A stretch of 64,000 nucleotides of DNA, from contig NZ_JAANTH010000001.1 of the NCBI RefSeq assembly GCF_011734195.1, forward strand, positions 1,364,001 through 1,428,000, given 5' to 3'. The notes under the pieces are model-generated. The model had not been told where the DNA came from. It worked only from the letters and a program-made list of their open reading frames with translations, and ran no database searches. Shown piece by piece: positions 14,369 through 34,634 of the stretch. This DNA comes from Halobacterium sp. R2-5 (GTDB lineage Archaea; Halobacteriota; Halobacteria; Halobacteriales; Halobacteriaceae). The position numbers were made by a program, and so were the translations under genes. Numbering within the stretch: the stretch's first letter is position 1; every line of letters begins with the position of its first letter.

Positions 14369-14662
14369 ATGTCTGACGGGTTCAATCTCGACCTGCGGAA
14401 CGCCGAGGAGGAAATCGACGTCCCCGAATCCTTCGAGGGCGACGTCGTCCTCGGCGTCCTCGACGGCACCACGCCCGACGACGAGTGGCTCGCGGAAGTC
14501 GACGCCGGGAACGTCCTCCTGCTCGCCGTCGAGGGCGACCTGAACGAACTCGCCGCCGGGTTCGCCGGCGACGTCAAGGACGCCGGCGGCACGCTCATGC
14601 ACTTCCGGGAGTTTCTCGTCGTCGCGCCGCCCGGCACCGGCGTGGACGCCGACCGGCTGTAG
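14369..14662 (+). CDS. DUF5779-like haloarchaeal protein
   Basis: 97 residues, very acidic, starting MSDGFNLDLRNAEEEIDVPE. It alternates strands and helices (DVVLGVLDGT, NVLLLAVEGDLNELAAGFAGDVKDAGGTLMHFREFLVVAPPG) without membrane segments. This matches a conserved haloarchaeal small family that I recall as DUF5779. No function known. The nine extra in-frame codons upstream are unlikely because a TATA-like box lies at the right distance from 14369. Confidence 0.7.
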   Translation: MSDGFNLDLRNAEEEIDVPESFEGDVVLGVLDGTTPDDEWLAEVDAGNVLLLAVEGDLNELAAGFAGDVKDAGGTLMHFREFLVVAPPGTGVDADRL

Positions 14663-14698
14663 GACAGCGAGAATGGAATAGAACAGCGTACAGCGCGG

Positions 14699-14822
14699 CT
14701 ACCAGGTCAGTCCTTCGTAGACGATGCCGTCGCGGCGGTCGATGGCGCGCCGCCCGTCGACGACGACGAGCGTCTGCATCGCGTCGAACGCCGCGTCGAG
14801 GGCGGTGATTACTCGGAGTTCA
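14699..14822 (-). pseudogene. C-terminal remnant of a nucleotide-sugar dehydrogenase (UDP-glucose dehydrogenase type)
   Basis: Reading the minus strand to the TAG at 14699-14701 gives about 40 residues ending [22 protein letters not shown], preceded by [11 protein letters not shown]. This is the characteristic C-terminus of haloarchaeal UDP-glucose/UDP-mannose dehydrogenases, which normally run to about 420-440 residues. The rest of the gene is missing: the adjacent DNA upstream is the TRAM-domain gene in another frame. It is therefore a truncated remnant, probably left by a deletion or rearrangement. It may once have belonged to a sugar-nucleotide locus like the one 2 kb downstream. Confidence 0.75.
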
Positions 14823-15170
14823 CGCCCGTCCCTCGTAGATGGCGTCCGCGGACGTCCCGTTCCGGTTGAACGAGGTGACGGTCGCGCGGACGACGTCGCC
14901 CTTCGAGACGCTCTCCGGGACGTCCTCCGTGAACAGCACGAACCCCTCGACTTTCCCGACCGCGACGCGCTCGCCGGAGTGGTGTTCGGTGAACTCCGTG
15001 ACGCCGAACTCGTAGGTCTCGCCCATATCCACGGGCGCGTCCCGCTGCTGGGCCTCGTCGTGCGCGCGCTTCGACGCCGCCTTCTCCGAGGATCGTCGCC
15101 GCCACAGCACCAGTGCGACCAGCACCAGCAGGGCGCCAGCGGCGCCGCCGAAGACTACCGGATTATTCAT
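14820..15170 (-). CDS. Membrane-anchored TRAM domain protein
   Basis: 116 residues. One N-terminal transmembrane helix ([17 protein letters not shown]) followed by basic RRR places the rest in the cytoplasm. A TRAM domain spans about residues 45-113 ([13 protein letters not shown]...[13 protein letters not shown] type, ending [23 protein letters not shown]). TRAM domains bind RNA, for example in tRNA-modifying enzymes and archaeal RNA chaperones; a membrane-tethered version suggests RNA binding near the membrane. Its stop codon touches the nucleotide-sugar dehydrogenase remnant downstream. Confidence 0.85.
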
Positions 15171-16642: not shown

Positions 16643-17560
16643 CTAGTCGTCGTCGAGCTGGTCGATGCGGCGGCGCTGCTCGCGGTGGAGGGTGACCACG
16701 AGGTCCGAGAGCACGCCGAACATCGCCAGCTGGACGCCCAGCAGGACGAGGACGCCCGCGACCATCGTCAATGCCTCGTGGGAGATTCCCTTCGCAAACC
16801 AGTCGTAGCCGACGTACGCCGCGAGTACGGCGCCCGAAATCCCGGAGACGGCGCCGACGCTGCCGAAGTAGAACATCGGGTTCGACGTCTTCGCGAGGCT
16901 GTACAGCGTGAGGATGATGCGCCCGCCGTCCGAAATCGGGTGGAGGTTCGTCTCCGAGCCCTCCGGTCGCGCGCGGTACGTGGTAGGGACGACCGCGACG
17001 GGAATGTTGTGGCGCGCACACTCCACGGCCATTTCGGTCTCGATGCCGAACCCCTCCGCCGAGAGGAACATCTTCTCGAAGGAGTCTCGGGTGAACGCGC
17101 GGTACCCGGAGAGGATGTCGCCGTAGTCCTCGCCGTGGATGCGGTGGAACGCCGCGTTGATGAGGCGGTTCCCCACCTGATTGAGCTTCGTCATCGCGCC
17201 CGGCTGCATGTCCGCCGTTCGGTCGCCCACGACGTGCTCGGCGTTTCCGGAGACGAGCGGGTCGAGGAGGCGGGGGGCCTGTTCGGGTGGATTCGTGGCG
17301 TCGCCGTCGAGCAGGAGAACGTACTCGTGGTCGATGTGCTCGACGCCCTGGCGGACCGCTTGACCCTTTCCGGTGCCGGACTGTTCGATGACTTCCGCGT
17401 CGTGGTCTTCGGCGATGTCTGCGGTGTCGTCCTCGGAGTGGCCGTCGACGACGAGTACGTGGCCGATGCCGACGTCGTAGAGGCCGTCTATCACGTCCGC
17501 GATCGTGGCGGCCTCGTTGCGCGTCGGCACGAGCGCGCACACGTCCTCGTAGTCGGTCAT
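16643..17560 (-). CDS. aglJ: AglJ-like dolichyl-phosphate hexosyltransferase
   Basis: 305 residues. An N-terminal GT2 domain has CALVPTRNEAATI, VVDGHSEDDT and the donor-binding DGDATNPP. A C-terminal pair of membrane helices (GISGAVLAAYVGYDWFA and ALTMVAGVLVLLGVQLAMFGVL) follows. This layout and length match AglJ, which in Haloferax adds the first hexose to dolichyl phosphate in S-layer N-glycosylation, on the cytoplasmic membrane face. It stands at the left edge of a glycosylation region that includes aglB. A GTTTTTG box 26-32 bases upstream supports the start. Other dolichyl-phosphate sugar synthases are the main alternative. Confidence 0.75.
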   Translation of the reverse strand: MTDYEDVCALVPTRNEAATIADVIDGLYDVGIGHVLVVDGHSEDDTADIAEDHDAEVIEQSGTGKGQAVRQGVEHIDHEYVLLLDGDATNPPEQAPRLLDPLVSGNAEHVVGDRTADMQPGAMTKLNQVGNRLINAAFHRIHGEDYGDILSGYRAFTRDSFEKMFLSAEGFGIETEMAVECARHNIPVAVVPTTYRARPEGSETNLHPISDGGRIILTLYSLAKTSNPMFYFGSVGAVSGISGAVLAAYVGYDWFAKGISHEALTMVAGVLVLLGVQLAMFGVLSDLVVTLHREQRRRIDQLDDD

Positions 17561-18955: not shown

Positions 18956-19879
18956 CTAGTTGAGATAGTACTCGATGGTCCGTTCCAAGCCTTCATCGAA
19001 AGAGGTGGTCGGCTCCCAGCCGAGGGACTCGATTTTGCCGGTATCTAGTGCGTATCGTTGGTCGTGGCCGGGGCGATCCTCCACGAACTCGATAAGGTCT
19101 TCCGAAGCGGCGACTTCCTCGATAATACGCTCAGCAACTCCCTTATTCTCAAACTCGTTGCCACTCCCAATATTATAGACCTCTCCGTCCTGTCCCTTCT
19201 CGAGTGCGGTCAGAATTGCTCGGCAATTATCCTTGACGTAAATCCACTCACGAACGTTCGTTCCGTCACCGTACAACGGGAGCGACTTCCCTTCGGCAGC
19301 GCGAGTGGTGAACTTTGGAATTAACTTCTCCTCGTGCTGTCGAGGTCCGTAGTTGTTAGAGGAACGTGTAATAACGACTGGAATGTCGTGCGTCGTATAG
19401 TAGCTCTTCGCGAGCAAGTCCGCGCTGGCCTTAGTCGCAGCGTAGGGATTTCGGGGATTCAACGGGTCCCCCTCGTCAAACACGCCCTCAGCCGTCTCAC
19501 CGTATACTTCATCGGTCGAGACCTGGAGAAAACGGTCGATACCGGCTTCCAGTACCGCGTCAAGAAGCACCTGCGTCCCGCGAATGTTCGTCTCGACAAA
19601 CGGACCTGCACCATTAATGGAGCGGTCAACGTGTGACTCTGCGGCAAAATTCAGGACCACATCCGCGTCGGCAACGAGATCGGAAACGAGCCCCTCGTCA
19701 CTAATGTTCCCCTCAACGAATTCGTGACGGGGATGGTCAAGAACACCCTCAAGGTTGTCGAGCGAGCCCGCATATGTGAGCGCGTCGAGTGTCGTCACTT
19801 CGTGATCGGTCTCCCGCAAGACGAGTCGAACAAAGTTCGATCCGATGAAGCCAGCGCCACCGGTAACGAGTAATTGCAT
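18956..19879 (-). CDS. rfbB: dTDP-glucose 4,6-dehydratase
   Basis: 307 residues of the extended SDR family. Converts dTDP-glucose to dTDP-4-keto-6-deoxyglucose, the second step of dTDP-rhamnose synthesis. NAD motif GGAGFIGS (7-14), catalytic STDEVYGE, active-site Tyr-Lys in PYAATKAS, and substrate stretches SSNNYGPRQHEEKLIPKF and GDGTNVREWIYVKDNC are all present. The length is slightly below the bacterial 340-360, as usual for archaeal forms. The start at 19879 gives the canonical MQLLVTGGAGFIG N-terminus; the long upstream frame runs into rfbD and is rejected. It is divergent from rfbD with a shared 54-bp promoter. Confidence 0.93.
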   Translation of the reverse strand: MQLLVTGGAGFIGSNFVRLVLRETDHEVTTLDALTYAGSLDNLEGVLDHPRHEFVEGNISDEGLVSDLVADADVVLNFAAESHVDRSINGAGPFVETNIRGTQVLLDAVLEAGIDRFLQVSTDEVYGETAEGVFDEGDPLNPRNPYAATKASADLLAKSYYTTHDIPVVITRSSNNYGPRQHEEKLIPKFTTRAAEGKSLPLYGDGTNVREWIYVKDNCRAILTALEKGQDGEVYNIGSGNEFENKGVAERIIEEVAASEDLIEFVEDRPGHDQRYALDTGKIESLGWEPTTSFDEGLERTIEYYLN

Positions 19880-19902
19880 ATCTACATATCCGGATGGCCA
19901 CG

Positions 19903-19908
19903 TTAATT
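19903..19908. promoter_or_regulatory. Symmetric TATA core between rfbB and rfbD
   Basis: TTAATT within CGTTAATTGCC lies 26-31 bases before the rfbD ATG (19934) and 24-29 bases before the rfbB ATG (19879) on the other strand. No second AT-rich core at a suitable distance is obvious in the 54-bp gap, so one TBP site could serve both genes. Confidence 0.45.
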
Positions 19909-19933
19909 GCCTTTCGTCGCCCACTCCTTGAGT

Positions 19934-20836
19934 ATGCAACTCCTGGTCACCGGTGCAGGCGGCCTCCTCGGGAGCAATATTGTTTCGACAGCCGTTCAGG
20001 CTGGCCACGACGTCCTTGGAACTTATCACACAGATAAACCCGACCTGATGGCTCCGCACCGGCGGCTTGATATCACCCACCACGAAACGTTTCGCAAGCT
20101 GGTGAACGAATCTGCTCCCGATGTCGTGGTGAACTGTGCCGCAATGACGGACGTGGATAGCTGCGAATCTAAACCGACCCACGCCGAAAAGGTGAACGGA
20201 CAGGCACCGGGGAATATAGCAGCTATATGTGCCGAACGAAATATCGCATTCGTTCAAGTCTCAACCGATTACGTATTCGACGGCAAGCGCGAGACGAAGT
20301 ATAGAGAAGACATCACTCCGAATCCAATACAGACATACGGTCAGACGAAACTCACCGGGGAACGCCGCGTTTTCGAGTGTCATCCTTCGGCACTCATCAT
20401 TCGGCTCTCATTCGTCTACGGCGTCCATGAGGATACCAGCGATCTCGAAGGATTCCCCGCTTGGGTTGTATCGCGACTCGGCACTGGAGAAGAAGTCCCG
20501 CTATTTGTCGATCAACATATTACTCCTACTCGAGCAGGGCAGGCTGCAGAGACGATTCTCACACTCGTCTCTGATGATGCCGCTGGAACCTATCATATCG
20601 CATGTAGCGAGTGCGTCACCCCCTATAAGTTCGGCGAGGGAATTTGTAACCAGCTCGATATAGATACTTCACTGCTGATGGAGTCGACAACAGCCGATGT
20701 CTCCCGTTCTGCTTCTCGTCCGACACACACTTGCCTCGATGTCGACCGAGTCGAGGCACGACTCGGTCGTCCGCAACCGGATCTCGCGGAGGATCTCCAA
20801 GCGATTCGTTCCTCGCTGGAAGCGGGCGTCAGGTAA
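19934..20836 (+). CDS. rfbD: dTDP-4-dehydrorhamnose reductase
   Basis: 300 residues, RmlD-type SDR. Final step of dTDP-L-rhamnose synthesis, reducing dTDP-4-keto-rhamnose with NAD(P)H. NAD motif GAGGLLGS (7-14), NCAAMTDVDSCE, STDYVFDG, the catalytic Tyr-Lys in YGQTKLTGE and RLSFVYG are in place. The length is normal. It starts at the ATG at 19934, nine codons into a longer open frame, giving an N-terminus parallel to RfbB. It is convergent with the zinc-ribbon gene, 6 bases apart. GC content is lower than the window average. Confidence 0.92.
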   Translation: MQLLVTGAGGLLGSNIVSTAVQAGHDVLGTYHTDKPDLMAPHRRLDITHHETFRKLVNESAPDVVVNCAAMTDVDSCESKPTHAEKVNGQAPGNIAAICAERNIAFVQVSTDYVFDGKRETKYREDITPNPIQTYGQTKLTGERRVFECHPSALIIRLSFVYGVHEDTSDLEGFPAWVVSRLGTGEEVPLFVDQHITPTRAGQAAETILTLVSDDAAGTYHIACSECVTPYKFGEGICNQLDIDTSLLMESTTADVSRSASRPTHTCLDVDRVEARLGRPQPDLAEDLQAIRSSLEAGVR

Positions 20837-20842
20837 TCAGCC

Positions 20843-21025
20843 CTAATCTATCCGGTACTGCTCACGGTGCTCTAAGAAATACTCTTGTTCGTCCTCCGAA
20901 AGGTCCTCAAACCGGAGAATCTCTTCGCAGTTCAGGCCGGGGCACTTCATTACGCGGCGTTTTTCCAGTTCGTTCGCTGCCTCGATAGTTCCACAGTTCG
21001 GACAGGTGAGGGTAATAATGCGCAT
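20843..21025 (-). CDS. 60-residue zinc-ribbon protein
   Basis: 60 residues with TCPNCGTIEAAN and KCPGLNCEEIL, four or five cysteines arranged as a zinc ribbon, followed by an acidic helix (DLSEDEQEYFLEHREQY). Haloarchaea encode many such CPxCG microproteins, some of which affect biofilm or stress behaviour; a specific role is not evident. It begins two bases after the rfbA stop on the same strand, so it is the last gene of an rfbC-rfbA operon. Why a zinc-finger microprotein is coupled to dTDP-sugar synthesis is unclear. Confidence 0.8.
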   Translation of the reverse strand: MRIITLTCPNCGTIEAANELEKRRVMKCPGLNCEEILRFEDLSEDEQEYFLEHREQYRID

Positions 21026-21027
21026 GG

Positions 21028-22101
21028 TTAAAGCTTGAGATTGGAATTCTCACCGATAGTCAGGCGCCGTCCCTCAGGGAGAAGCCCCTCCGAGCTGCTG
21101 ATTGTTGCTCCGCGTCCTACGAGACTGTCGACAATTTTCCCATTCGTGGTCACCTCTGAATCGCCAATAACGACACTGTTCTCGATATGCACGTTTTTGA
21201 TGGTCGTGTTTGGTCCGATCGAAGTGTACGGTCCGACATAGGCTCCTCCCATGACGGTGGATCCTGAAGCGATGGAAATTGGACCGCGAACCACGGCTCC
21301 ATCCTCGATGACCGCGTCGTCCGCTAGGTCAATATGGCCCGACACTTCTGCGCCGTCCTCTATTTCCCCGTCGCGGCTCCCAGGTCGCTCATCGAGCGCC
21401 AGGCGATTGGCATCGAGGATATCCGCTGGTTTGCCTGTATCTTTCCACCACCCTTCAACGACGTGAGAGTCTATTTGATGGCCGCTATCGAGAAGCGACT
21501 GGATGGCATCCGTGATTTCGAGTTCCCCCCGCCAGGATGGCTCCAACTCCTCGATAGCAGCGAAAACTTCGTTAGAAAACACGTACACACCGATGAGCGC
21601 GAGGTCAGTTGGTGGCTGATCCGGCTTTTCGATAAGTTGGACGACGTTTCCACCATCGTCAACGTCGGCGATACCGAACTGAGTCGGATTTTCGACATGC
21701 TGGAGCGCAATACCGGCGCCGTAGTCGCCTGCTTGGAAGCTTTCGACGAGGTCCTCGATGCCCTGGTTGAGAATATTGTCTCCCAAATACATCACGAAAT
21801 CGTCATCGCCGACAAAGTCTCGAGCGCAGCCAGCGGCGTGTGCGAGCCCTAATGGTTCACCTTGGACGATGTACGTGATATCGACGCCGAAGCGAGACCC
21901 GTTACCCAAATATTCCTGAATTTCGTCGCGCCCCTTGTTCCCGAGAATAATCGCGATTTCGGTAATTCCTGCCTCTTTCAGGTCCTCAATACCGTACTGA
22001 AGCACCGGCTTGTTTGCGACGGGCACGAGCTGCTTCGGTCCCGTGTGGGTGATAGGGCGTAGACGCGTCCCAGTTCCACCAGACAATAGCACTCCTTTCA
22101 T
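21028..22101 (-). CDS. rfbA: Glucose-1-phosphate thymidylyltransferase, long form
   Basis: 357 residues. Makes dTDP-glucose from dTTP and glucose-1-phosphate. The nucleotidyltransferase signature LSGGTGTRLRPITHTGPKQL begins at residue 6. DNILNQGIE and GEPLGLAHA (substrate loops) follow, and residues after about 245 form a left-handed beta-helix of hexapeptide repeats (IDLADDAVIEDGAVVRGP). Short bacterial RmlA enzymes lack this tail; the long form is usual in archaea. It lies three bases downstream of rfbC and two upstream of the zinc-ribbon gene. Confidence 0.92.
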   Translation of the reverse strand: MKGVLLSGGTGTRLRPITHTGPKQLVPVANKPVLQYGIEDLKEAGITEIAIILGNKGRDEIQEYLGNGSRFGVDITYIVQGEPLGLAHAAGCARDFVGDDDFVMYLGDNILNQGIEDLVESFQAGDYGAGIALQHVENPTQFGIADVDDGGNVVQLIEKPDQPPTDLALIGVYVFSNEVFAAIEELEPSWRGELEITDAIQSLLDSGHQIDSHVVEGWWKDTGKPADILDANRLALDERPGSRDGEIEDGAEVSGHIDLADDAVIEDGAVVRGPISIASGSTVMGGAYVGPYTSIGPNTTIKNVHIENSVVIGDSEVTTNGKIVDSLVGRGATISSSEGLLPEGRRLTIGENSNLKL

Positions 22102-22104
22102 GAA

Positions 22105-22569
22105 CTATTCGTGGGGTTCCGCGTGCCAGTCAAAAGGTATTTCGTCTGAGTCGTGGGGAATCCGCTCTTCGTCGGGCTCATCATAGTCATACAGCTTCGA
22201 GGGGAAGTTGAGGAGGAATGCTGGCTCGTCGCCGATGGCCTTGAAACCGTGCCAGCAATCGCCGGGGATGCGAACGGCTACCTGATTATGCTCGCCGACG
22301 ACCAACGTGTTTAGTTCACCTTGTGTCGGTGAGTCCTCGCGGTCGTCGTAGATTCCGATTTTGATACGGCCTTTCGGACAGACGAAATGGTCAATCTGAC
22401 CTTCCATATGGCGATGCCACGCGCGCACGATGCCTGGGTAGGTCATTGAGTAGTAAGACATGGCCGGTTCCGGCTCGTAAAGGTCCCAGTCCTCCCGGAA
22501 GACCTCGACTAAGTGACCGCGCTCGTCAGCGTTGACCTGGAGTTCGCGGGTTTCGACGCCTTCAATCAT
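22105..22569 (-). CDS. rfbC: dTDP-4-dehydrorhamnose 3,5-epimerase family protein
   Basis: 154 residues with an RmlC-like cupin core: RGHLVEVFREDWDLYE, the GIVRAWHRH strand (His as candidate catalytic base), HFVCPKGRIKIGIYDD, and VRIPGDCWHGFKAI. Canonical RmlC has about 180 residues and reads RGLHYQ at the His, so this is a shorter, divergent member. Still, its place before rfbA and the presence of rfbB and rfbD make the 3,5-epimerase role of dTDP-rhamnose synthesis the best reading. It starts at the ATG at 22569, the left border of the AT-rich island. Confidence 0.82.
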   Translation of the reverse strand: MIEGVETRELQVNADERGHLVEVFREDWDLYEPEPAMSYYSMTYPGIVRAWHRHMEGQIDHFVCPKGRIKIGIYDDREDSPTQGELNTLVVGEHNQVAVRIPGDCWHGFKAIGDEPAFLLNFPSKLYDYDEPDEERIPHDSDEIPFDWHAEPHE

Positions 22570-23592: not shown

Positions 23593-23703
23593 ATCTATAA
23601 ACCCTGACCACATTGACATCCAGAACGTGCATAAGTGCTCCGGAATGATTCTGGCAAAACAAGAAAGAAACACTCAAAACCTAGGGCCATTATTTTCACA
23701 CTA

Positions 23704-24507
23704 ATGGAAGAAAACACCGAATTCGTCTACTCCCTCTCTAGTCAACCCTATCCAAACCACATGGTGAAAGATGCAGTACGGTCAATCATGTCGTTAAAAA
23801 ATTGGGTTAGCCCCGGACAAATTACAGTATATTACACACCTCCGAGGAACGAGCATGATCTAAATGCTCTCCGTGAATTAGAGGTGAATATTGAACTCGT
23901 TGAGAACGAGGTAGAACCCTTCTCATTAAATATTTTAGGTAAGTCAACCCCATATGGGGAGATGTGGCATCTATGTAAGTCGGATGCCGACACCGTCGTT
24001 TGGTTAGATAATGATACTATAGTGACCCGAAACATTTGGGAGGTTATTGAAGGTAATTATGACTTTAAAGCTCGGTCCGAGGAAGACAAATCTACTGATC
24101 CAGGGTGGTATGAAATGTTCGAAAAATTTGACCGGAAACCCATGGATTGGCGGTTTAATGCTGGTTTTCTAGTATTCAAGAACGGCATCCATAAAGAAAT
24201 AAAAGAGGAGTGGAAGATTCTCATGGAATCGGATTTGGGGTATTACAACGCACCCACAATGCAAGATGCACATGCCCTAGCCCTGTGTGTATCAAAATTT
24301 AGATGTGAGAAAATGTCTCCTGAAGAGCACATAATGGAATGGGGAGACAAACCGAAGCCCAACGGATATGTTTACCATTACATTACGGGCTATGATGCTA
24401 AAACTCAGATCAGAAATGCCGTTCGAAGACGTATTCCTGAACCTTTGAAGAAAAAAATCAGAAAGTGGAAATCTCAGGGAACCCCCTCAATGTTTTCTCA
24501 TAAATAA
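23704..24507 (+). CDS. GT-A-fold glycosyltransferase, GT8-like
   Basis: 267 residues. The pattern FVYSLSSQPYPNHMVKDAVRSI, then PGQITVYYTPP, a DADTVVWLDNDTIVTRNIWE block with the metal-binding DxD (LDNDT), and a WRFNAGFLVFKNG segment follow the order of GT8-type or related retaining transferases. The C-terminus is basic (PLKKKIRKWKSQGT), possibly a membrane-surface contact. No sugar can be assigned. Its stop overlaps the next ATG as TAATG, so the four genes that follow form one transcription unit. AT-rich codon use. Confidence 0.7.
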   Translation: MEENTEFVYSLSSQPYPNHMVKDAVRSIMSLKNWVSPGQITVYYTPPRNEHDLNALRELEVNIELVENEVEPFSLNILGKSTPYGEMWHLCKSDADTVVWLDNDTIVTRNIWEVIEGNYDFKARSEEDKSTDPGWYEMFEKFDRKPMDWRFNAGFLVFKNGIHKEIKEEWKILMESDLGYYNAPTMQDAHALALCVSKFRCEKMSPEEHIMEWGDKPKPNGYVYHYITGYDAKTQIRNAVRRRIPEPLKKKIRKWKSQGTPSMFSHK

Positions 24508-25475
24508 TGGAAACCCCTGTCATGCTATACCTGAAACCCCATCACGCACACCGCTCCATGGGGGAGTCAATTGGAGCCGATTTTGTGGAATTAGAACGTG
24601 GAAATCCCCTCAAAAGAATTGTTGCAGCGAAGAATCTTGATCTGGATAACAAGCCGATAATCACAGAAGGCGGTAAACCACTTTTTCAAGCAGTTTGGAT
24701 GAAATTCTTCGGGAATTGCGGTCCGATTATTCACCTTGCGGCGGACGAGACGCTCCCCAATATATTCGATAAATATCCGCATTATAAACATCACGAACGC
24801 TTCATCCACTATTTAGAACATAAATATGTAGACGGAGTGATTGGGATCTCAGACAAAATTTGTGAAAGTGCGAGGCGGTTAGGGATATGTAATGTTCAAA
24901 AGACATATCCATTTACTGAGGAGTGGAAGTTTGAAAAGCTTACAGATACGACCCCAAATCTGGACTCTGACAAGATTTTGGTTGTCGGGCATAATTCAGA
25001 CAAAAATAACCTCCAAACCTTAGAGGAAATAGCCAAGTCCTGCTCCTCAGAGGTGTCTATCGACGTTATCGGTGGTGGGACTGAAACGCTTGATAGTGAA
25101 CACGTTCAGGGTCACGGATTCATAGGGGATGAAGATAGGTTCGTGCAATTCTTTTCGAATGCGAGCTGTTTTCTCTTTCCGGCGGTCTCTCAGATGTTCG
25201 GCGTTGTCGTTCTCGAGGCTATGCATGCTGGCCTCCCTCCCATAGTTACCGAGGATGTCGGAGCCAAAGAGGTGTTGTCGCCCGTGGACGATAGACTGAT
25301 AGCCAAAACCACTCCAGAAGATCTCGCACGGAGTATCGACTGGTATATGAGCCTCCCCCGATCTCAGAAGAAATCATTATCCGGTCAGGTCCGAACGGTC
25401 TCTAAGGAGCATTCACCAATGGAAGGGATTAAGCGGTTTGAGAAGTCCTACGAGAACGTAATCAATGACCTTTAG
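24507..25475 (+). CDS. GT4-type glycosyltransferase (GT-B fold)
   Basis: 322 residues. The C-terminal nucleotide-sugar site is evident: KILVVGHNSDKNN, VQGHGFIGDEDRFVQFFSNASCFLFPA, then FGVVVLEAMHAGLPPIVTEDVGAKEVL, which contains the EX7E-type pattern of GT4 enzymes. The N-terminus (MLYLKPHHAHRSMGESIGAD, then ITEGGKPLFQA) closely parallels the GT encoded at 29266-30282 (FLYYDPHPVHEKMAECVGAE, ILEGGVPLAEG), so the two are paralogues. It overlaps the following phosphatase-superfamily gene by 11 bases. Cytoplasmic; sugar unknown. Confidence 0.85.
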   Translation: METPVMLYLKPHHAHRSMGESIGADFVELERGNPLKRIVAAKNLDLDNKPIITEGGKPLFQAVWMKFFGNCGPIIHLAADETLPNIFDKYPHYKHHERFIHYLEHKYVDGVIGISDKICESARRLGICNVQKTYPFTEEWKFEKLTDTTPNLDSDKILVVGHNSDKNNLQTLEEIAKSCSSEVSIDVIGGGTETLDSEHVQGHGFIGDEDRFVQFFSNASCFLFPAVSQMFGVVVLEAMHAGLPPIVTEDVGAKEVLSPVDDRLIAKTTPEDLARSIDWYMSLPRSQKKSLSGQVRTVSKEHSPMEGIKRFEKSYENVINDL

Positions 25476-26448
25476 CGATTTTCTTGAGGAAGCCCGGACA
25501 GATTACGAAAAATACGGGTTCGAGTCGTTCAAATTTACTGCCCAGGAATTATTCCACGGCCTTCTGAGTCGAGGCGGGTATTGGGTCAATTATGGCGATA
25601 ACTTCTATGACTACGAGTGGGATTTGCTAATTCTCCTTGATGCTTGTAGGTGGGACTTGATGGAGGAGGTCGTAGACGAATATGACTTTGTAGAGGCTCA
25701 CGATAATTTCATGGGTCACTCCTCACATTCCCGGGAATGGCTCCATAAAACATTCATGCAGAATGATAACAGTGGGGTTGGGAAATTACAGGTCTGGAAA
25801 GAAATTATGCAGGATCCAGACAATATTGACATTTTTAAAGAGCACTACAGTATGAAGGAGACCGAGGAGATTGATGAAACGGCCTATATTACCTGGAATT
25901 TCTTTGCGGAAATGCTGGATGGGGACCAATTCGATGAATATGTTCCGGTCGGTAGAGCAAAGTGGGGTGACGGAACCGGGATTCTTGATCCCCGAGAAAT
26001 TACTGACAGAACTATTGAGGTAATGAGGGAACATTCTCCGGAAAGAACGATTGCTCACTATATGCAACCTCATACCCCGTTACGGAAGGAGGCGGAACCA
26101 GACGTTTCTGGGAGCGTCTGGGAACGAATTCAGCGAGGAGAGAAGGATTACGACGAGGCGTGGTCGGAATACAAAGATAATCTGCGGTGGGTCATGGATG
26201 ACGTGGAGCTTCTTCTAGAAAACGTTGACGCAGAAACGGTCGTAATTTCCGCTGACCACGGAAACGTTATTGGGGAATGGGGATGTTACGGTCATCGTCC
26301 ATATGCCCCGATTCCCGCAGTGAAGCGGGTTCCGTGGATCGAAGCTACTGCGAACGACGAAGGAACTTACGAGCCTGAAATAGACGATAAAGAGGAGGCG
26401 AATCAGGAGGAAATAGAGGACAGACTTGAAGCCCTCGGGTATAAATGA
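25465..26448 (+). CDS. Alkaline-phosphatase/sulfatase superfamily enzyme, cytoplasmic
   Basis: 327 residues without signal or membrane helices. Metal-site elements are the N-terminal WDLLILLDACRWD and the C-terminal VVISADHGNVIGEWGCYGHRPYAP, typical of the superfamily. The usual sulfatase CxPSR nucleophile is not present; GHSSHSREWLHKTF occupies the region and supplies Ser residues. It ends EDRLEALGYK, the same closing pattern as the sulfatase at 27918-29273 (EERLRELGYIE). It could hydrolyse or transfer a phosphate- or sulfate-linked group on a glycan precursor. It is between a GT4 and a flippase with overlaps at both ends. Function inferred only. Confidence 0.75.
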   Translation: MTFSDFLEEARTDYEKYGFESFKFTAQELFHGLLSRGGYWVNYGDNFYDYEWDLLILLDACRWDLMEEVVDEYDFVEAHDNFMGHSSHSREWLHKTFMQNDNSGVGKLQVWKEIMQDPDNIDIFKEHYSMKETEEIDETAYITWNFFAEMLDGDQFDEYVPVGRAKWGDGTGILDPREITDRTIEVMREHSPERTIAHYMQPHTPLRKEAEPDVSGSVWERIQRGEKDYDEAWSEYKDNLRWVMDDVELLLENVDAETVVISADHGNVIGEWGCYGHRPYAPIPAVKRVPWIEATANDEGTYEPEIDDKEEANQEEIEDRLEALGYK

Positions 26449-27878
26449 GTGCTGGTAATCTCAGCTTGGGGCTGGAGGCTGCCAAAGCTTTCTCCGCAAA
26501 CCTGATTCAGGCTATTGTTGGATTTGCAGGGACTGTAATCTTTGCGCGGGTTCTTGGTCCGACATCATTCGGTGGTTACTACTTTCTCCTCTCAATCATT
26601 TTCCTGATTAATCGCCCTATCTGGGGTTTTGGGAGTGCTGCGAAGAAACGGTTTTCAGAAAAGAATGCCCCGAGGGGTGAGATTGTATCGGCAATCACTG
26701 TCATCAATTTCATATTGATAGCAATTACCGGGACAGTCCTTTTATTAACCAATACTATTAAATCTCAATCAAACGTTCCTTCCGCGGAGTTAGTCTTCCT
26801 CACGATTCTGGGGAGCATCATCTTCTTCTTCCCCTTCCAGATGCTGATTGGAGCGAAGGGAATGCCAGGGCGTTCGACTTGGCTCGACACACTCCGTTCA
26901 GTACTCACGTTGCCTCTCCAGCTATTGTTTGTTATTTCGGGATTTGGTGCAGCGGGGATGGGATATGGTCTAGCTAGTGCAACACTCCTTACAATTCCTG
27001 TCACGTACTATACTGTTGGTACGAAGCCGACGTTACCGACCCGCGAGACGTTCGCCTCCCTGTGGGAGTTCGCGCGATACAGCATTCCGGGAGCCTTCGT
27101 CGGCAAAGCCTACGACCGATTCGACATCCTCCTCCTGGGAACCATTCTCACCACGGGTGTTGCCGGCCACTACGAGGTCGCGAACAAGCTCACCGTCCCA
27201 GCACTGTTCCTCTCGGGTGCGATTACCTCAGGACTCATGCCGAAGGTGTCGAACCTCCAGAGTAAATCGGAGGACCCCACCACGGATATCTCGAACGCGC
27301 TGTCCTTCGCGAGCCTCCTCGCAATTCCTATCTTCTTCGGTTCGCTTGCCCTCTCGCAGAAACTGGTTGTGACCGCGTACGGCGCGGACTACGCTATGGC
27401 TGCGCCGTACTTGGTGGGTCTCGCGTTCTACAAAGTAATCTCGTCACAGACGTCGGTCCACCGCTCAACGCTCTCTGGTCTCGACCTTCCAAGAATCAAC
27501 CTGAAGTTCTCGACGCTTGCGTTACTCGTAAACGTGGTCCTCGGGGTTGCCCTTGTCTTCGTTATCGGGGGCATCGGCGTGGTCATCGCGACTATCATAG
27601 CCGAAGCAGTGCAGTACTTCGGAGCGATGTACACCGTCAAACGGGAGCTTCCAGCCGTCGAGATCTTTCCAACGACTTTCCTCCAGCAGGTAGGTGCTGG
27701 AGTTGCGATGCTTTTCGCGCTTTATGGTCTCCGAGGTCTCTTTGTTCTCGACTCATTATACTCTGTAGGGCTCATTGTCGGATGTGGAGCGGCGGTGTAC
27801 GGTACTGTGCTTCTGGTAGTGAGTCCCCAACTCCGAGTTACCCTAATGGGTGTTTACGGAGACGTAGCAGGAAAATAG
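26445..27878 (+). CDS. Wzx-like oligosaccharide-lipid flippase
   Basis: 477 residues, about 12-14 hydrophobic helices, polysaccharide-synthase/MATE-like superfamily (Wzx, AglR type). The N-terminus SLGLEAAKAFSANLIQAIVGFAGTVIFARVLGP is characteristic. Probable role: moving the lipid-linked glycan to the outer face before AglB acts. It overlaps the preceding gene by four bases. Unusually, its 5' part (to about codon 180) is AT-rich like the island, whereas the rest is GC-rich like the host chromosome, suggesting a mosaic gene produced by homologous recombination. The frame is intact throughout. Confidence 0.88.
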   Translation: MSAGNLSLGLEAAKAFSANLIQAIVGFAGTVIFARVLGPTSFGGYYFLLSIIFLINRPIWGFGSAAKKRFSEKNAPRGEIVSAITVINFILIAITGTVLLLTNTIKSQSNVPSAELVFLTILGSIIFFFPFQMLIGAKGMPGRSTWLDTLRSVLTLPLQLLFVISGFGAAGMGYGLASATLLTIPVTYYTVGTKPTLPTRETFASLWEFARYSIPGAFVGKAYDRFDILLLGTILTTGVAGHYEVANKLTVPALFLSGAITSGLMPKVSNLQSKSEDPTTDISNALSFASLLAIPIFFGSLALSQKLVVTAYGADYAMAAPYLVGLAFYKVISSQTSVHRSTLSGLDLPRINLKFSTLALLVNVVLGVALVFVIGGIGVVIATIIAEAVQYFGAMYTVKRELPAVEIFPTTFLQQVGAGVAMLFALYGLRGLFVLDSLYSVGLIVGCGAAVYGTVLLVVSPQLRVTLMGVYGDVAGK

Positions 27879-27917
27879 CCGAGCGGCTAGTTTCACGGAG
27901 GGAACAACTAACGTGGG

Positions 27918-29273
27918 TTACTCGATGTATCCCAATTCACGAAGCCGTTCCTCTGTATTTTCATCGAGGTTGTCGTCCCCGCTCCCCACAGCCTCTAGTT
28001 CCGCACGCAACTGTTCCATCAGCGCCTCTTCCAGTTCGACCGGATGCTCTCCCCACCGATTCTCGAGTTCCATCGGGTCATTCGGCCGGTAGTACGCCTC
28101 CCAGCTTTCCTCCGGGAAGTTCTTCGCGCCCCAGTCACCTTCGGGATGGTAGAGAACTTTCCACTCCTCTCCGACGGCCGCAGCCATCCGCTCACCGGCT
28201 TCCATCACGTTCTGGACGGTGACTGTATCGCGATCAGCTCGTTCATCAAATAGTAGAGACGGCCGACCTCCGGGACGCTCCTCCGAACCTGCTAGGTCGA
28301 GAATCGTACTCCCGAGGTTGAGAAGCGACGTCGGCCCGTGGACGCGACCGGTCTCGCCGACGTTCTCCATTACCATAGGAACGCGCGTGACTGTGTCGTA
28401 CATGAGTGGACGATGCCCGTAGTTTGCGTGTTCGCCGAACTCGTCACCGTGATCGCTATGTACGATTAACGGTTCGTCGCCGTAGCCTTCCACGGCAAGT
28501 TTCTCCCGTAGTTGATCGACGAACGCATCCGCGTACCGAATCGTGTTGTCGTAGGCATTCACGATAGAGGGTCGTCGTTCGCCGACGAGTCCGCGGTACC
28601 GGCGCATCGCGTAGTTCAACGCGTACGTCGAACGGATACCAGGCTGGTCCCACTCCTGATATTCAGGTGGGGGGTAGTAGGGATGGTGGGTGTCGATCAG
28701 CAGTACCCAAAGGAAGAATGGCTCCGGCGCATCCTCGACGAACTCGGCGATGTCGTCCCACATCTTCTCCCAGTGGGGCGGCTTCTTCCCGGCAGCCGTT
28801 CGCTTGAGGTCGACAGCGAAGTTCGCCATGTCTACCTTCTGGAGCGCCTCGTAGATGCGCTTCTTCCAGCCGGAGTCGGTGCTGTCGTCCTCGTCCCACA
28901 TGTGGTCCTCGTAGACGTCCCAGCCGCGGTCCCAGCCGAACGAGGAGCTCACGAGCGCGTTGAAGTGGAAACCACCCGTATAGTACCCCTCGTTTTGAAG
29001 GTACTCTTGGAGGAGTTTCCGGTCCGCATTTGCCTCCCGCCAGTGTTGGGGGTTCGGGTACTCCATGCTTCCGCTGGCGTGCTTGCCGGAGAACATTCCG
29101 GTGAAACTCGCTGGCGTCCCGACAGCCGGCACTTGCGGGTCGTCGAACACCAGGCCGTCCTCGGCCATCGCGCTGAGCGTCGGCGTCGTCTCCCGGTCGT
29201 ACCCGTACAGCGGCAAGTGGTCTGCACGGACGCTGTCCCACGAAACCAGAACGATGTTTTGTTTTTCAGTCAT
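27918..29273 (-). CDS. Sulfatase family protein, cytoplasmic
   Basis: 451 residues. N-terminal metal site NIVLVSWDSVRADHLPLYGY; nucleophile region VPAVGTPASFTGMFSGKHA, where a Thr takes the place of the Cys or Ser of CxPSR; VLLIDTHHPYYPP; and a C-terminal metal site VHSDHGDEFGEHANYGHRPLMYD. No signal peptide is present, so it acts in the cytoplasm and may not be a degradative sulfatase. The ending EERLRELGYIE matches the paralogue on the other side of the flippase. It overlaps the upstream GT by eight bases (ATGACTGA). A role in glycan decoration or carrier chemistry is inference. Confidence 0.85.
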   Translation of the reverse strand: MTEKQNIVLVSWDSVRADHLPLYGYDRETTPTLSAMAEDGLVFDDPQVPAVGTPASFTGMFSGKHASGSMEYPNPQHWREANADRKLLQEYLQNEGYYTGGFHFNALVSSSFGWDRGWDVYEDHMWDEDDSTDSGWKKRIYEALQKVDMANFAVDLKRTAAGKKPPHWEKMWDDIAEFVEDAPEPFFLWVLLIDTHHPYYPPPEYQEWDQPGIRSTYALNYAMRRYRGLVGERRPSIVNAYDNTIRYADAFVDQLREKLAVEGYGDEPLIVHSDHGDEFGEHANYGHRPLMYDTVTRVPMVMENVGETGRVHGPTSLLNLGSTILDLAGSEERPGGRPSLLFDERADRDTVTVQNVMEAGERMAAAVGEEWKVLYHPEGDWGAKNFPEESWEAYYRPNDPMELENRWGEHPVELEEALMEQLRAELEAVGSGDDNLDENTEERLRELGYIE

Positions 29274-30282
29274 TTGTGGTGGTGTCGTATCCCAGGTCGG
29301 CGAGGAGGTTTCTCAGCTGGAACGCAAACAAGTCCAGTCCCGTCTCCTCGTCGAACCCAGAGCCGTAGTTTGCTGCACGACGACCGAGCTCAGCGCGCCG
29401 CTCCTGTGGGAGCGAGAAGTACCAGTCGATGGCGTCCGCCACGTCCACCGATGTCGGGTCCGCAAGGAGGCGCCCGTTCACGCCCCGTACGAGCGTAGCC
29501 GTGCCGACACCCGGCGTTGTGACGACAGGTAGGCCCGCGCAGAGTCCCTCTAGGGTCGCCACTGGGAACGCTCCGACTGGCGCTGGGAATACCATCAGCG
29601 CCGCGGACTCGAACAGTTCGACGAGCCGCTGTTCGCTCACGAACCCGTGGGTCGTTATCTGGTCCGTTTCGCTGATCTCCGTCGTGTCGGGACCGACGAA
29701 GTCAACAGTCACGTCGGCGTCGACTCGCGGCATCGCGTCCACGAGGATGTCCTGTCCGTTCTTCTCTCGGTACTTCCCGACACAGAGTATCCGAGTTCCA
29801 TCGAGCGATGAATCGAGTTCGCGAAGTAGCGAGTACCGATTGGCTTCGATGAACGGGTGCGTTACTCGAACTGGGCCGTCAGTGAATCGTTCGGCAATGG
29901 TGGCGATGCGCTCACTCACCGCAAGTGTACCATCGACGAACCGTTGCGCGAATCGATGCGTGAACCGACTCGTTCGACTACGACTCGGCAGCGGGTCGAC
30001 GATGTCGTGGTACGTCGAATCAGCACCGAGTGCGATCACCGGCCCCGACGTTCCCAGCGCCTTCAGGACGGTGCCTTCGGCGAGTGGAACGCCTCCTTCG
30101 AGAATGACCGGCCGGTCACCGAAATCATGGCTTCGGCCTGCGAGAATCCGGTCAATCGGGCTGCCAGTCTGACACTGTACCATCTCGGCGCCCACGCACT
30201 CCGCCATCTTCTCGTGGACTGGATGGGGGTCGTAGTATAGGAAGACTGGCTCTGGTTGTATTTCGAAGTCCGATCGGACCAT
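29266..30282 (-). CDS. GT4-type glycosyltransferase, paralogue of the gene at 24507
   Basis: 338 residues from the ATG at 30282. GT-B fold with RILCVGKYREKNGQDILVDA, ITTHGFVSEQRLVELFESAALMVFPAPVGAFPVATLEGLCAGLPVVTT (GT4 acidic pattern) and the N-terminal EPVFLYYDPHPVHEKMAECVGAE. The frame extends 31 residues upstream, but that piece overlaps the previous gene and lacks family character. It is translationally coupled to the sulfatase gene. Together with the AT-rich GT/phosphatase pair it forms a duplicated module around the flippase. GC-rich codon use like the host. Sugar unknown. Confidence 0.85.
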   Translation of the reverse strand: MVRSDFEIQPEPVFLYYDPHPVHEKMAECVGAEMVQCQTGSPIDRILAGRSHDFGDRPVILEGGVPLAEGTVLKALGTSGPVIALGADSTYHDIVDPLPSRSRTSRFTHRFAQRFVDGTLAVSERIATIAERFTDGPVRVTHPFIEANRYSLLRELDSSLDGTRILCVGKYREKNGQDILVDAMPRVDADVTVDFVGPDTTEISETDQITTHGFVSEQRLVELFESAALMVFPAPVGAFPVATLEGLCAGLPVVTTPGVGTATLVRGVNGRLLADPTSVDVADAIDWYFSLPQERRAELGRRAANYGSGFDEETGLDLFAFQLRNLLADLGYDTTTND

Positions 30283-30310: not shown

Positions 30311-31336
30311 TTAAAAGTACACCGTTTCGACGAACTCGCGCAAGTCCGCGCGGAACCGCTCCGTACTGTAGTCATATGAACGGTTCCGGAGCACTTGTCG
30401 GTCCCAGTCTCCCCGAAGCACGTCCTGGATTCCGGTCACGACGGCTTCGGGTGTCGGTTCGACTAGGACGCCAGTGTCCTCGTCAACCTGATTGTTCGTG
30501 TTCGGTTCGTCAACACCCACCACCGGCGTGCCTGCGGCCATGTATTCGATTGGCGTGATGCCAAAATCCTCTCGCTCCGCCAAGAAAACTCCTGCAGCGC
30601 TTTCCTCAATAGTTGACCTGAGGGTCTGGTCGTCGACGTACCCGAGGATGTCGACGTTCGACGGAGCGGTCCGTTCGATTTCCTCGCGCAGCGGGCCGTC
30701 GCCGACCAGCTTGAGTGTACAGTCCGGTAGTTCTTGCATCGCGTTGACAGCCACACGCGGGCGCTTTCGGTCTTCAAGTCGGCCGACCATCACGAGCTGT
30801 GACTCGACTCGTTCGGTGTCCGACGAGAATTGCTCCACGTCCACCGGTGGTGGAATTACACGGTCGACGCCTTGACCGTACTGCCGGAAGACGCGGGTAG
30901 ACGTGAGCTCGCTGTTCGCGATCAGGTGTGGGATTGCGGACGTTTCGATCCGGTCAACTATCTTGACGAGATAGGAGAACAGGCCGCCAGTGAACCACAG
31001 TGATGCCAGCGGCGGATGGTGGAGGTAGTGGACGTGGAGTTGGTCATCGTACGGCTGGAAGAATTTCGTGGCCGGACCACTCGATAGCACGAGATCGTAT
31101 TCTCGCAGGTCGAGGTTGAGAATCGACCGGGCAGTCCTGATATCGTTGAGCGTGCCGCTCCGTGATGTTTTCCGGAGAAGCGTAACCTCGTTTGGAACCC
31201 GAGTTTCCCACCAACTCCAGTCCTTTCCGGAGAATCCGATGTAGAGGTCCGCGTCGAGGGCGTGAGCAGCCTCCGTGACGACGTTCACCGCACCGCCCGG
31301 GTGGATGGTTCCGTCGTGAACTACCGCAGTCTCCAT
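30311..31336 (-). CDS. GT4 family glycosyltransferase
   Basis: 341 residues, GT-B fold. N-terminal acceptor domain has METAVVHDGTIHPGGAVNVV and VHYLHHPP. C-terminal donor domain has QLVMVGRLEDRKRPRVAVNAM, LKLVGDGPLREEIE, ILGYVDDQTLRSTIEESAAGVFLAEREDFGITPIEYMAAGTPVVG, with the GT4 acidic motif, and the Asn/Gln-rich NTNNQVDEDTG loop. It is probably the first gene of a three-gene minus-strand unit with the next GT and the sulfatase. It is divergent from aglB. Likely builds the lipid-linked glycan in the cytoplasm. Confidence 0.88.
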   Translation of the reverse strand: METAVVHDGTIHPGGAVNVVTEAAHALDADLYIGFSGKDWSWWETRVPNEVTLLRKTSRSGTLNDIRTARSILNLDLREYDLVLSSGPATKFFQPYDDQLHVHYLHHPPLASLWFTGGLFSYLVKIVDRIETSAIPHLIANSELTSTRVFRQYGQGVDRVIPPPVDVEQFSSDTERVESQLVMVGRLEDRKRPRVAVNAMQELPDCTLKLVGDGPLREEIERTAPSNVDILGYVDDQTLRSTIEESAAGVFLAEREDFGITPIEYMAAGTPVVGVDEPNTNNQVDEDTGVLVEPTPEAVVTGIQDVLRGDWDRQVLRNRSYDYSTERFRADLREFVETVYF

Positions 31337-31442: not shown

Positions 31443-34400
31443 ATGAGCGAGACGAACGAGGCATCGAGGGATTCCTCCACGACGCCCGATTCAGCCCTCG
31501 ACGCTCTCGAAAACTGGTACCACGTACCCGTGCTGGGCGCTGTCCTCGCGTTCATGTTCTGGGTGCGCGTGCAGGCGTGGGAGAACTTCACGCAGAACGG
31601 CGAAGTGTACTTCTCCGGGAACGACGCGTACTACCACTTCCGGCAGGTTATGTACACGGTCCAGAACTGGCCGTCGACGATGCCATACGATATTTGGACC
31701 GGGTTCCCAACCGGAGTGGGCGTCGGTCAGTTCGGGACGCTGTTCGACCAAATCGTCGCGACAGTCGCACTTCTCGTCGGGCTCGGCAGCCCCTCCCAAG
31801 AGACCGTCTCGATGACACTGCTGTTCGCTCCGCCGGTCTTCGCCGCACTACTCACGATTCCGACGTACCTCATCGGGAAGCGTCTGGGCGGCCGGCTCGG
31901 CGGCGTCTTCGCCGCAGTCATTCTCGGACTCCTTCCAGGTTACTTCCTCTCGCGGAGCCTCGTCGGCGCTGCGGACCACAACGGCGCGGAGCCGCTGTTC
32001 CAGGCGTTCGCAGTCCTCGCGACGATGGTCGCGCTCGCCGTCGCGGAACGCGAGAAACCCGTCTACGAGCAGTTCCTCGACCGTGACGTCGCAGGCCTCC
32101 GCCGTGTCGTCGGCTGGAGCGTCCTCGCCGGCGCCGCCACCGCGGCCTACATGTGGGTGTGGCCGCCCGGCATCCTGCTGGTCGGCATCTTCGGCGTGTT
32201 CTACCTCGTGAAGCTGACAAGCGACTACTACAGCGGCACGAGCCCAGACCACGTTGCCGTCGTCGGCGCCGTCAGCTCGGTGACAACCGGCCTCCTGATG
32301 CTGGTGCCGCTGTCGACGCTCTCCTTCTCTCCGTCCCAGTTCTCTATCCTCCAGCCGCTGTTCTCGATCGCAGTCGGTGTCGGCGCGGTGTTCCTGGCGT
32401 GGCTCGCCCGCGAGTGGGACAACCGTGAACTCGACGCCACTACGTACCCGCTCGCAGTGTTGGGTATCCTCGTCGTCGCGCTCGGTGTGACGACGGTCGT
32501 GCTCCCCAACTTCTGGGGGATGCTCCAGTCGAATCTCCTGCGCTTCGTCGGCTTCAGTGCCGGCGCAGCGACCCGCACCATCGGCGAGGCGCAGCCGTTC
32601 CTTTCGCGGACGGGCCGCTACGGCCTGGGAATGTTCGGCGTCATCTTCCTCGAGTACGGACTCGCGTTCTTCACGGCGCTCCTCGGCGCGGCGTGGATTC
32701 TCCTCCGACCGCACTTCCGCAGCGGCAACCCGCGACGCATCGGCGGTGCGGCGGCCGCAGTCCTCGTGGTCGGTCTCGTGTTCGCGGTGCCGGGCATCGG
32801 TGACGCGGTCGGCACGCTCTTCGGCGTGGACGGCCAGCTCGGCTCGCTCGCCATCGTCGGCGTCACGCTGCTCGCGGTCACGGTGACCGGCGAGTACGAC
32901 GCGGAGAAACTGCTCGTGGTCGTCTGGGGTGCGTTCATCGCCTCGGCGGCGTTCACGCAGGTGCGGTTCAACTACTACCTCGTCGTGCCGGTCGTCGTGC
33001 TGAACGCGTACGTGCTCAAAGTCGTGCTCGGCTTCGTGAGCCTCGACAAGCCGGCCTCCCAGGTCGAGGACGTCGACTGGTACCAGGTCGGCACGGTCGT
33101 CGCGGTCGTCCTGCTGGTGCTCGTCCCCATTGCGGCACCCGTAGCTGCGTCCGCGACCGGCGGCGGCGCCAGCCCGGTTCGACTGACGAACAACCAGGGC
33201 CAGCAGGTGCCCCTGCAGTCGGCGACGACAGTCGGCGCGTCGAACGGTCCCGGCGCGGTGACAGTGTGGGACGACGCGATGGAGTGGATGGACGAGAACA
33301 CGCCCGACCAGGGTACCTACGGCGGCGCGGACAACGCCGACCAGATGGAGTACTACGGGACGTACAGCCAGACCGACGACTACGACTACCCCGAGGGTGC
33401 GTACGGCGTGATGTCGTGGTGGGACTACGGCCACTGGATGACCGTCGAGGGCCACACCATCCCGGTCGCGAACCCGTTCCAGCAGCACGCGAGTGAGGCC
33501 GCGAACTTCCTGCTCGCGCAGAACGAGACGGAGGCCGCGAACGCGCTCGAAGTCGTCAACGAGGACGACGCGAAGACGCGCTACGTCGCGGTGGATTCCC
33601 AGATGGTCTCGCCCCAGGAGAAGTTCAGCGCGCCGACGGTCTTCTACGACGGCCCGCGAGATCTCACCTACCGTGACTACGTCACGCAGACGTACGCCGG
33701 CCAGTTCTCCGACGGGCAGCTCCAGCGGCAGCCCCAGCCCTACTTCCAGCTCCGGGAGCAGCCGTACTACGAGTCGCTGATGGTGCGGCTCTACCAGTAC
33801 CACGGCAGCGCGAAGCAGCCCGACCCGCTGGTCGTCGACTGGGAGTCCGACCCCGGCGCGCCGGTCTTCGACGCGAGCCAGCAGAGCCCGTTCCGGCAGT
33901 TCGACACGCTGAGTGAGGCCGAAGCGTACGTGGCGAACGACTCCACGTCCCAGATCGGTGGGTACGGGCGCAGCCCGCCGGAGTACGTCGACGCCCTCCA
34001 GCACTACCGGCTCATCGGGTCGAGCGACGACACCGGCGTGAAGCTCTTCGAGCGCGTCGAGGGCGCGACCGTCGAGGGCACCGGGCCCGCGAACACGACG
34101 GTGACCGCGTCGGTCACGCTGAACATGACCGACCTCTCGCAGGGCGGGCAGACGCCGCAGTTCACGTACACGCAGCGCGCCGAGACCGGGCCGGACGGCG
34201 AGTTCACGATGACGCTCCCGTACTCGACGACCGGCTACGACGAGTACGGCCCCGAGAACGGCTACACGAACACGTCCGTCCGCGGCGCGGGCCCCTACGA
34301 GTTCACGACGGGGCCGACGACCTCGGAGGACCTGACGACCGTCGAGTGGAACGCGACTGCCGACGTCACCGAGGGACAGGTCCTCGGCACTGAGGAGACC

Positions 34401-34634
34401 ACGACCGAGGTCGACCTGGAGCGCCACGTCGTCGACCGCCCGGAAGGCGCGGAGCAGAACGACACGAGCAACGAGACGCAGTCGCTGGCGTCGCCGGACG
34501 CGGTGACGACCGAGACGTCCACTGCGTCCGCGGACTCGGGTAGCGCGCCGGTCGACGCGCAGTCGCCGTTCGGCGCGGCCGCAGCGCTCGCGGCGCCAGC
34601 GGTCGTCGGCGCGCTCGCCCGCCGGTACGCCTGA
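31443..34634 (+). CDS. aglB: Dolichyl-monophosphooligosaccharide-protein transferase AglB
   Basis: 1063 residues, near the length of Haloferax AglB. The archaeal STT3 enzyme transfers the glycan from its dolichyl phosphate carrier to Asn in N-X-S/T sites of exported proteins such as the S-layer glycoprotein. The N-terminal half is a multi-helix membrane domain; its first loop has SGNDAYYHFRQ (catalytic, metal-binding) and a later GAADHNGAEPLFQ. The catalytic WWDYG motif is at 659-663. The C-terminal extracellular part is acidic and ends in a helix (AAALAAPAVVGALARRYA). Start by TATA-like box spacing. Its stop overlaps the next start. Confidence 0.96.
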   Translation: MSETNEASRDSSTTPDSALDALENWYHVPVLGAVLAFMFWVRVQAWENFTQNGEVYFSGNDAYYHFRQVMYTVQNWPSTMPYDIWTGFPTGVGVGQFGTLFDQIVATVALLVGLGSPSQETVSMTLLFAPPVFAALLTIPTYLIGKRLGGRLGGVFAAVILGLLPGYFLSRSLVGAADHNGAEPLFQAFAVLATMVALAVAEREKPVYEQFLDRDVAGLRRVVGWSVLAGAATAAYMWVWPPGILLVGIFGVFYLVKLTSDYYSGTSPDHVAVVGAVSSVTTGLLMLVPLSTLSFSPSQFSILQPLFSIAVGVGAVFLAWLAREWDNRELDATTYPLAVLGILVVALGVTTVVLPNFWGMLQSNLLRFVGFSAGAATRTIGEAQPFLSRTGRYGLGMFGVIFLEYGLAFFTALLGAAWILLRPHFRSGNPRRIGGAAAAVLVVGLVFAVPGIGDAVGTLFGVDGQLGSLAIVGVTLLAVTVTGEYDAEKLLVVVWGAFIASAAFTQVRFNYYLVVPVVVLNAYVLKVVLGFVSLDKPASQVEDVDWYQVGTVVAVVLLVLVPIAAPVAASATGGGASPVRLTNNQGQQVPLQSATTVGASNGPGAVTVWDDAMEWMDENTPDQGTYGGADNADQMEYYGTYSQTDDYDYPEGAYGVMSWWDYGHWMTVEGHTIPVANPFQQHASEAANFLLAQNETEAANALEVVNEDDAKTRYVAVDSQMVSPQEKFSAPTVFYDGPRDLTYRDYVTQTYAGQFSDGQLQRQPQPYFQLREQPYYESLMVRLYQYHGSAKQPDPLVVDWESDPGAPVFDASQQSPFRQFDTLSEAEAYVANDSTSQIGGYGRSPPEYVDALQHYRLIGSSDDTGVKLFERVEGATVEGTGPANTTVTASVTLNMTDLSQGGQTPQFTYTQRAETGPDGEFTMTLPYSTTGYDEYGPENGYTNTSVRGAGPYEFTTGPTTSEDLTTVEWNATADVTEGQVLGTEETTTEVDLERHVVDRPEGAEQNDTSNETQSLASPDAVTTETSTASADSGSAPVDAQSPFGAAAALAAPAVVGALARRYA

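Follow-up and report, generated by a model that had tools for sequence, protein, structure and literature searches.

The N-glycosylation locus of Halobacterium sp. R2-5 raises the question of what two cytoplasmic enzymes of the alkaline-phosphatase superfamily, each encoded in overlap with a GT4 glycosyltransferase, do on either side of a flippase, and whether the two halves arose by duplication. The first N-glycans to be discovered outside eukaryotes were sulfated ones of archaea, whose sulfotransferases were, to our knowledge, named only in 2025. We analyzed a window of 64,000 nucleotides at 1,364,001-1,428,000 of contig 1 of this 2.98 Mb genome, in which both glycosyltransferase–enzyme pairs are sited in the locus aglJ-rmlBDAC-aglB. 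From its left border at aglJ the locus runs through rmlB-rmlD-rmlA-rmlC and more glycosyltransferases to the flippase and the studied genes, and on to aglB. Its features, in window positions, are as follows.

16643..17560, - strand: AglJ, first of the N-glycan glycosyltransferases, at the left end of the locus (TIGR04182, 439 bits, above cut-off)
18956..22569, mixed strands: rmlB(-) rmlD(+) rmlA(-) rmlC(-), dTDP-rhamnose cassette (RmlD by Pfam PF04321; RmlA, RmlB and RmlC named from sequence)
23635-24507: glycosyltransferase-8-like protein, directly 5' of GTa (no curated family above cut-off)
24507..25475, + strand: GTa, GT4 glycosyltransferase of the GTb subfamily (PF00534, E 7.7e-16; PF13692)
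25465..26448, + strand: ENZa, 327 aa, cytoplasmic alkaline-phosphatase-superfamily enzyme, likely glycan sulfotransferase
26445..27878, + strand: Wzx/MOP-type flippase (PF13440, E 7.8e-15; PF01943, E 5.9e-13)
27918..29273, - strand: ENZb, 451 aa, cytoplasmic S1-sulfatase-fold enzyme, likely glycan sulfotransferase (PF00884, E 1.6e-39)
29266..30282, - strand: GTb, GT4 glycosyltransferase (Pfam PF00534 / PF13692)
30311..31336, - strand: GT4c, a further GT4, upstream of GTb
31443..34634, + strand: AglB oligosaccharyltransferase, anchor of the locus (TIGR04154, 865.8 bits)

The five central genes (GTa, ENZa, flippase, ENZb and GTb) have the coordinates and strands that an earlier note on this DNA had given them. 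Their coding regions overlap by 11 bp (GTa/ENZa), 4 bp (ENZa/flippase) and 8 bp (ENZb/GTb). Both glycosyltransferases carry the glycosyl transferases group 1 domain (PF00534 / PF13692) above the Pfam cut-off, and both superfamily proteins are encoded between aglJ (TIGR04182) and aglB (TIGR04154). Flippase homologues 42-47% identical are present in other agl loci, and GT4c is kept together with GTb-ENZb in another Halobacterium (86%). GC content is about 67% in aglJ and aglB, drops to 42-47% between 22.6 and 26.4 kb and stands at 60-61% for ENZb and GTb, steps that make the locus a mosaic. The order rmlB(-) rmlD(+) rmlA(-) rmlC(-) also occurs in two Haloferax clusters (L273 and L274, with homologues 50-80% identical), both of which also contain several sulfatase-like enzymes. 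The shared cassette and enzymes suggest a rhamnose-containing, sulfated glycan comparable to the low-salt glycan of Hfx. volcanii.

Membership of both enzymes in the alkaline-phosphatase superfamily, as first proposed from the letters, is borne out by the superfamily fold of their AF2 models (pLDDT 84 for ENZa and 85 for ENZb) and by conserved metal-binding Asp and His residues. The ENZb model matches sulfatases best (6HR5, Z 37.7, rmsd 2.6 over 336 residues; 6HHM, Z 37.0; BT1596, Z 36; 5G2U, Z 35.8). The best match of ENZa is 4KAY, among the EptA/MCR phosphoethanolamine transferases (Z 15.0, rmsd 4.0 over 218 residues), with the top sulfatase structures at Z 14.4-14.7, within 1 of EptA/MCR (6HHM 14.4), and 5G2U at 13.4. 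Against the Pfam sulfatase family PF00884, with its cut-off of 25 bits, ENZb scores 136.5 bits and ENZa 14.4 bits. Among 102 relatives of ENZb the metal ligands D13, D274 and H275 are kept in 101/102 and H287 in 98/102; in the relatives of ENZa, D59, R62, D264, H265 and H277 are kept in 61/61. The absence of a CxPSR nucleophile was correctly noticed and is family-wide: the formylglycine Cys position of ENZb (T53) holds T in 81 and S in 21 relatives, hence T/S in 102/102, and S89 of ENZa is S/T in 61/61. Placed at a helix start in the model and always S/T in the alignment, S89 is the likely nucleophile of ENZa. Neither protein has a transmembrane-like segment (top 19-residue mean hydropathy 0.81 and 1.19), in agreement with the reported lack of an export signal. 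Two Haloferax species encode ENZa-type proteins with an inserted, zinc-ribbon-like CxC...CxxCxxC (L174 4610-5662 and L191 5498-6496).

Homology between the two enzymes is seen only by profile–profile comparison (99.3%, E 9e-21, 137 columns); BLASTP aligns a single 53-aa stretch around DHG...YGHRP (E 2e-6). On these comparisons they are distant superfamily relatives of different subfamilies and form no matched pair. The common R/L-L-x-x-LGY ending is present as described, but it is near-universal among such enzymes in haloarchaeal agl loci, and we rejected it as a special tie of ENZa to ENZb.

This way of decorating glycans had been called little-described, a view that does not survive the recent literature. 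For Agl30 (VNG1056C) and Agl31 (VNG1057C), alkaline-phosphatase-superfamily proteins from the aglB cluster of Hbt. salinarum strain NRC-1, N-glycan sulfotransferase activity was established in 2025 through deletion strains, mass spectrometry and expression in a foreign host (PMC11980604). Both are required for sulfating sugars three and four of the N-glycan, and expression of either in Hfx. volcanii brings about sulfation (PMC11980604). In addition, such enzymes occur in at least 34 of 67 aglJ loci (profile search, loci of at least 15 kb), 87 enzymes in all. Compared by description, Agl30/Agl31 resemble ENZa and ENZb in the genus, in being a superfamily pair, there with consecutive locus numbers, and in belonging to an aglB-anchored cluster. 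Agl30 has no InterPro family and Agl31 is an arylsulfatase-family member (PMC11980604), just as ENZa has no Pfam call and ENZb belongs to PF00884. The best PDB fold matches of Agl30/Agl31, 5G2U and 6HHM (PMC11980604), are also among the top ones for ENZb and present for ENZa. There are also differences, in that Agl30 is membrane-associated whereas ENZa lacks a membrane segment, and no GT4 partner next to Agl30/Agl31 is described in PMC11980604. Recent work on this genus accounts for most of what the present GT–enzyme pairs show, and they are a fresh instance of a system already known in kind. In the Hbt. salinarum type strain DSM 3754, whose genome encodes the exact salinarum bacteriorhodopsin, the agl region lies on broken contigs with a cluster unlike that of NRC-1; one contig (L101, 1125-8525) carries three sulfatase-like enzymes among glycosyltransferases, one with an N-terminal membrane segment, and also an AglG-like gene, apparently a second copy.

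A second precedent concerns the step at which sulfate is added. Agl7 of Hfx. volcanii, encoded in the agl5-agl15 low-salt cluster, has a role in sulfating the lipid-linked hexose, and in its absence dolichol phosphate carries unsulfated glycan while Asn-498 carries none (PMC3871713). Rhamnose synthesis and a flippase (Agl15) are encoded in this cluster too. The glycan differs, and the likeness of Agl7 to ENZa/ENZb is one of function (dolichol-linked glycan sulfation). The earlier proposal that a lipid-linked glycan is decorated before flipping agrees with the Agl7 phenotype, and a sulfate-type group agrees with both precedents.

Taken together, the sulfatase and EptA folds and the Agl30/Agl31 and Agl7 precedents point to cytoplasmic glycan sulfotransferases acting before flipping. 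We consider it probable, from sequence, models and analogy, that in both GTa-ENZa and GTb-ENZb a glycosyltransferase is paired with a sulfotransferase, and that the pairs work on the dolichol-linked N-glycan. Each GT4 would extend the growing glycan on dolichol phosphate by a sugar at the cytoplasmic face; the enzyme paired with it, likewise cytoplasmic and using a bimetal site and a Thr/Ser nucleophile, would then sulfate that sugar or a neighboring one; the flippase would move the finished glycan across the membrane, and AglB would attach it to protein. That ENZa and ENZb transfer rather than remove sulfate is something we infer, and the same holds for the donor of the sulfate, the sugars that accept it and the sequence in which the steps follow. 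VNG1063H, the third superfamily protein of the Hbt. salinarum cluster, is without a sulfation phenotype (PMC11980604), so superfamily membership is no proof of sulfating activity. Moreover, sulfation in Hbt. salinarum seems to come after completion of the tetrasaccharide (PMC11980604), and a strict order of adding a sugar and then sulfating that same sugar is therefore not assured. Should sulfatase-fold proteins be the way in which haloarchaea generally sulfate their glycans, the common annotation "sulfatase" in such loci would be misleading, and the adjoining GT4 would be a clue to which sugar carries the sulfate.

The same folds allow other chemistries. ENZa, and perhaps ENZb, might transfer a phosphoethanolamine- or phosphoglycerol-like group to the lipid-linked glycan in the manner of EptA. 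The EptA/MCR enzymes share with them the fold, a Thr/Ser-type nucleophile (here in place of the formylglycine Cys) and a lipid-linked saccharide as acceptor; they are the best fold matches of ENZa at Z 15.0, and EptA models of NCBIfam match part of ENZb. We nevertheless consider this reading unlikely: the sulfatase Z values for ENZa are tied with that match within 1 (14.4-14.7), EptA-type enzymes are membrane-anchored and external whereas ENZa and ENZb have no membrane anchor (maximum 0.81 and 1.19), and the characterized relatives in the genus sulfate.

It is quite unlikely that ENZa and ENZb are hydrolases taking sulfate or phosphate off the lipid-linked glycan or its precursors in an editing or phosphatase role. 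Their fold is equally compatible with hydrolases, the metal site is complete in both, and ENZb shares fold and metal ligands with the S1 sulfatases (PF00884; BT1596 and FA22070) at Z of about 36-37. ENZa and ENZb differ from S1 sulfatases in being intracellular, in sitting in biosynthetic loci and in having Thr/Ser instead of the formylglycine Cys. Against a hydrolase role, this Cys is found in 0/102 relatives of ENZb and 0/61 of ENZa, and the proven relatives add sulfate rather than remove it.

The sulfotransferase reading gives each enzyme a glycosyltransferase partner, and this partnership can be counted. In loci collected without regard to the ENZa family, a superfamily gene lies within 300 bp of 20/26 members of the GT subfamily, as against 7/27 other GT4 genes of the same loci (Fisher p 3e-4) and 19/77 other GT4 genes over all loci (p 4e-6), both p values being optimistic since many of the loci are related and thus not independent. 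Separate GT clades show the adjacency again, and it occurs with the two genes on one strand, divergent or convergent. On a Haladaptatus salinisoli plasmid the order is GT, "sulfatase-like hydrolase/transferase", methyltransferase and flippase, with GT and enzyme overlapping by 1 bp. That this GT4 subfamily is coupled to enzymes of the alkaline-phosphatase superfamily, as the earlier note had put forward from one locus, is borne out by the neighborhood survey and by this plasmid, and the link is real. We found no description of a conserved GT4 partnership with such enzymes in the open-licence papers searched, and this partnership is the part of the finding worth following.

Shuffling of haloarchaeal glycan loci rich in both gene types could in principle place functionally uncoupled GT and enzyme genes side by side. 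The enzymes are indeed frequent in agl loci, with 87 of them in 67 loci, many surveyed loci are related to each other, and GT-subfamily members in L116, on a Halomarina plasmid and on a Natrinema plasmid have no adjoining superfamily enzyme. We regard such uncoupled adjacency as very unlikely, as adjacency is far rarer for the remaining GT4 genes of these loci (7/27 against 20/26), the GT/enzyme overlaps in the source locus are 8-11 bp, and the pair is found again on the Haladaptatus plasmid with its 1 bp overlap. ENZa-type genes also lie no more than 150 bp from another superfamily enzyme in 30/55 cases, and tandem arrays of three or four ENZa-type genes occur in Haloferax marisrubri and Halorussus ruber (L169 3684-7589 and L135 3694-6628). 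The source genome itself has a second ENZa-type/ENZb-type pair on contig 2 (L256, 910000-929900, at about 9702-14942), together with an extra ENZa-type gene, a glycosyltransferase and an AglD-like membrane protein.

If ENZa and ENZb sulfate glycans, a sulfate donor is required, and the usual route to PAPS is not evident in this genome, in which no PF01747 match to ATP sulfurylase and no convincing APS kinase was found. The PF01583 matches are weak or unrelated, and we rejected them as APS kinase as their ORFs by eye resemble FtsY, HerA-type and P-loop kinase genes. The PAPS-reductase family PF01507 gives only weak partial matches, similar in number and strength in the salinarum genome. PAPS is also absent from the main text of the 2025 Agl30/Agl31 paper (PMC11980604). 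The locus, for all this, appears geared to glycan sulfation. With neither enzyme recognizable, one may tentatively think of a widespread, exchangeable haloarchaeal cassette, made of the GT4 subfamily and sulfatase-fold sulfotransferases, that would add and sulfate a sugar with a donor other than PAPS, a proposal that in its entirety we hold as possible rather than likely. The locus makes the question of the sulfate donor testable.

There remains the origin of the two halves. The glycosyltransferases are clearly related, as had been seen by eye (GTa against GTb, 34% identity over 320 aa, E 1e-71), and the two sides had been called a duplicated module. In the GT tree GTa is a long branch, sister to the GTb clade with support 100/99, and this full support speaks for a single GT–enzyme unit having been duplicated around the flippase, with later divergence. 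Such a history is nevertheless highly improbable, as across families GTb orthologues (L104 and L095) keep 62-88% identity, against 34% between GTa and GTb, ENZa and ENZb belong to different subfamilies, and the halves differ in GC (46-47% on the GTa/ENZa side and 60-61% on the GTb/ENZb side). The operons of relatives speak against it as well. Three of them, from another Halobacterium (L095), a member of another family (L104) and Halobellus clavatus (L158), have the order GTb, ENZb and ENZa-type gene, and no GTa is seen in these loci. In the source locus the ENZa-type gene is instead found on the far side of the flippase, after GTa and in DNA of lower GC. We reject a recent local duplication on the tree, on GTb-ENZb moving with its own ENZa-type third gene and on the unlike GC. 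The simplest account of the halves is that two cassettes of different history were brought together; an ancient duplication of the GT is possible. In L095 the ENZb orthologue (12787-14138, 80-90% identity) is broken into two overlapping frames, which is a frameshift or an assembly error.
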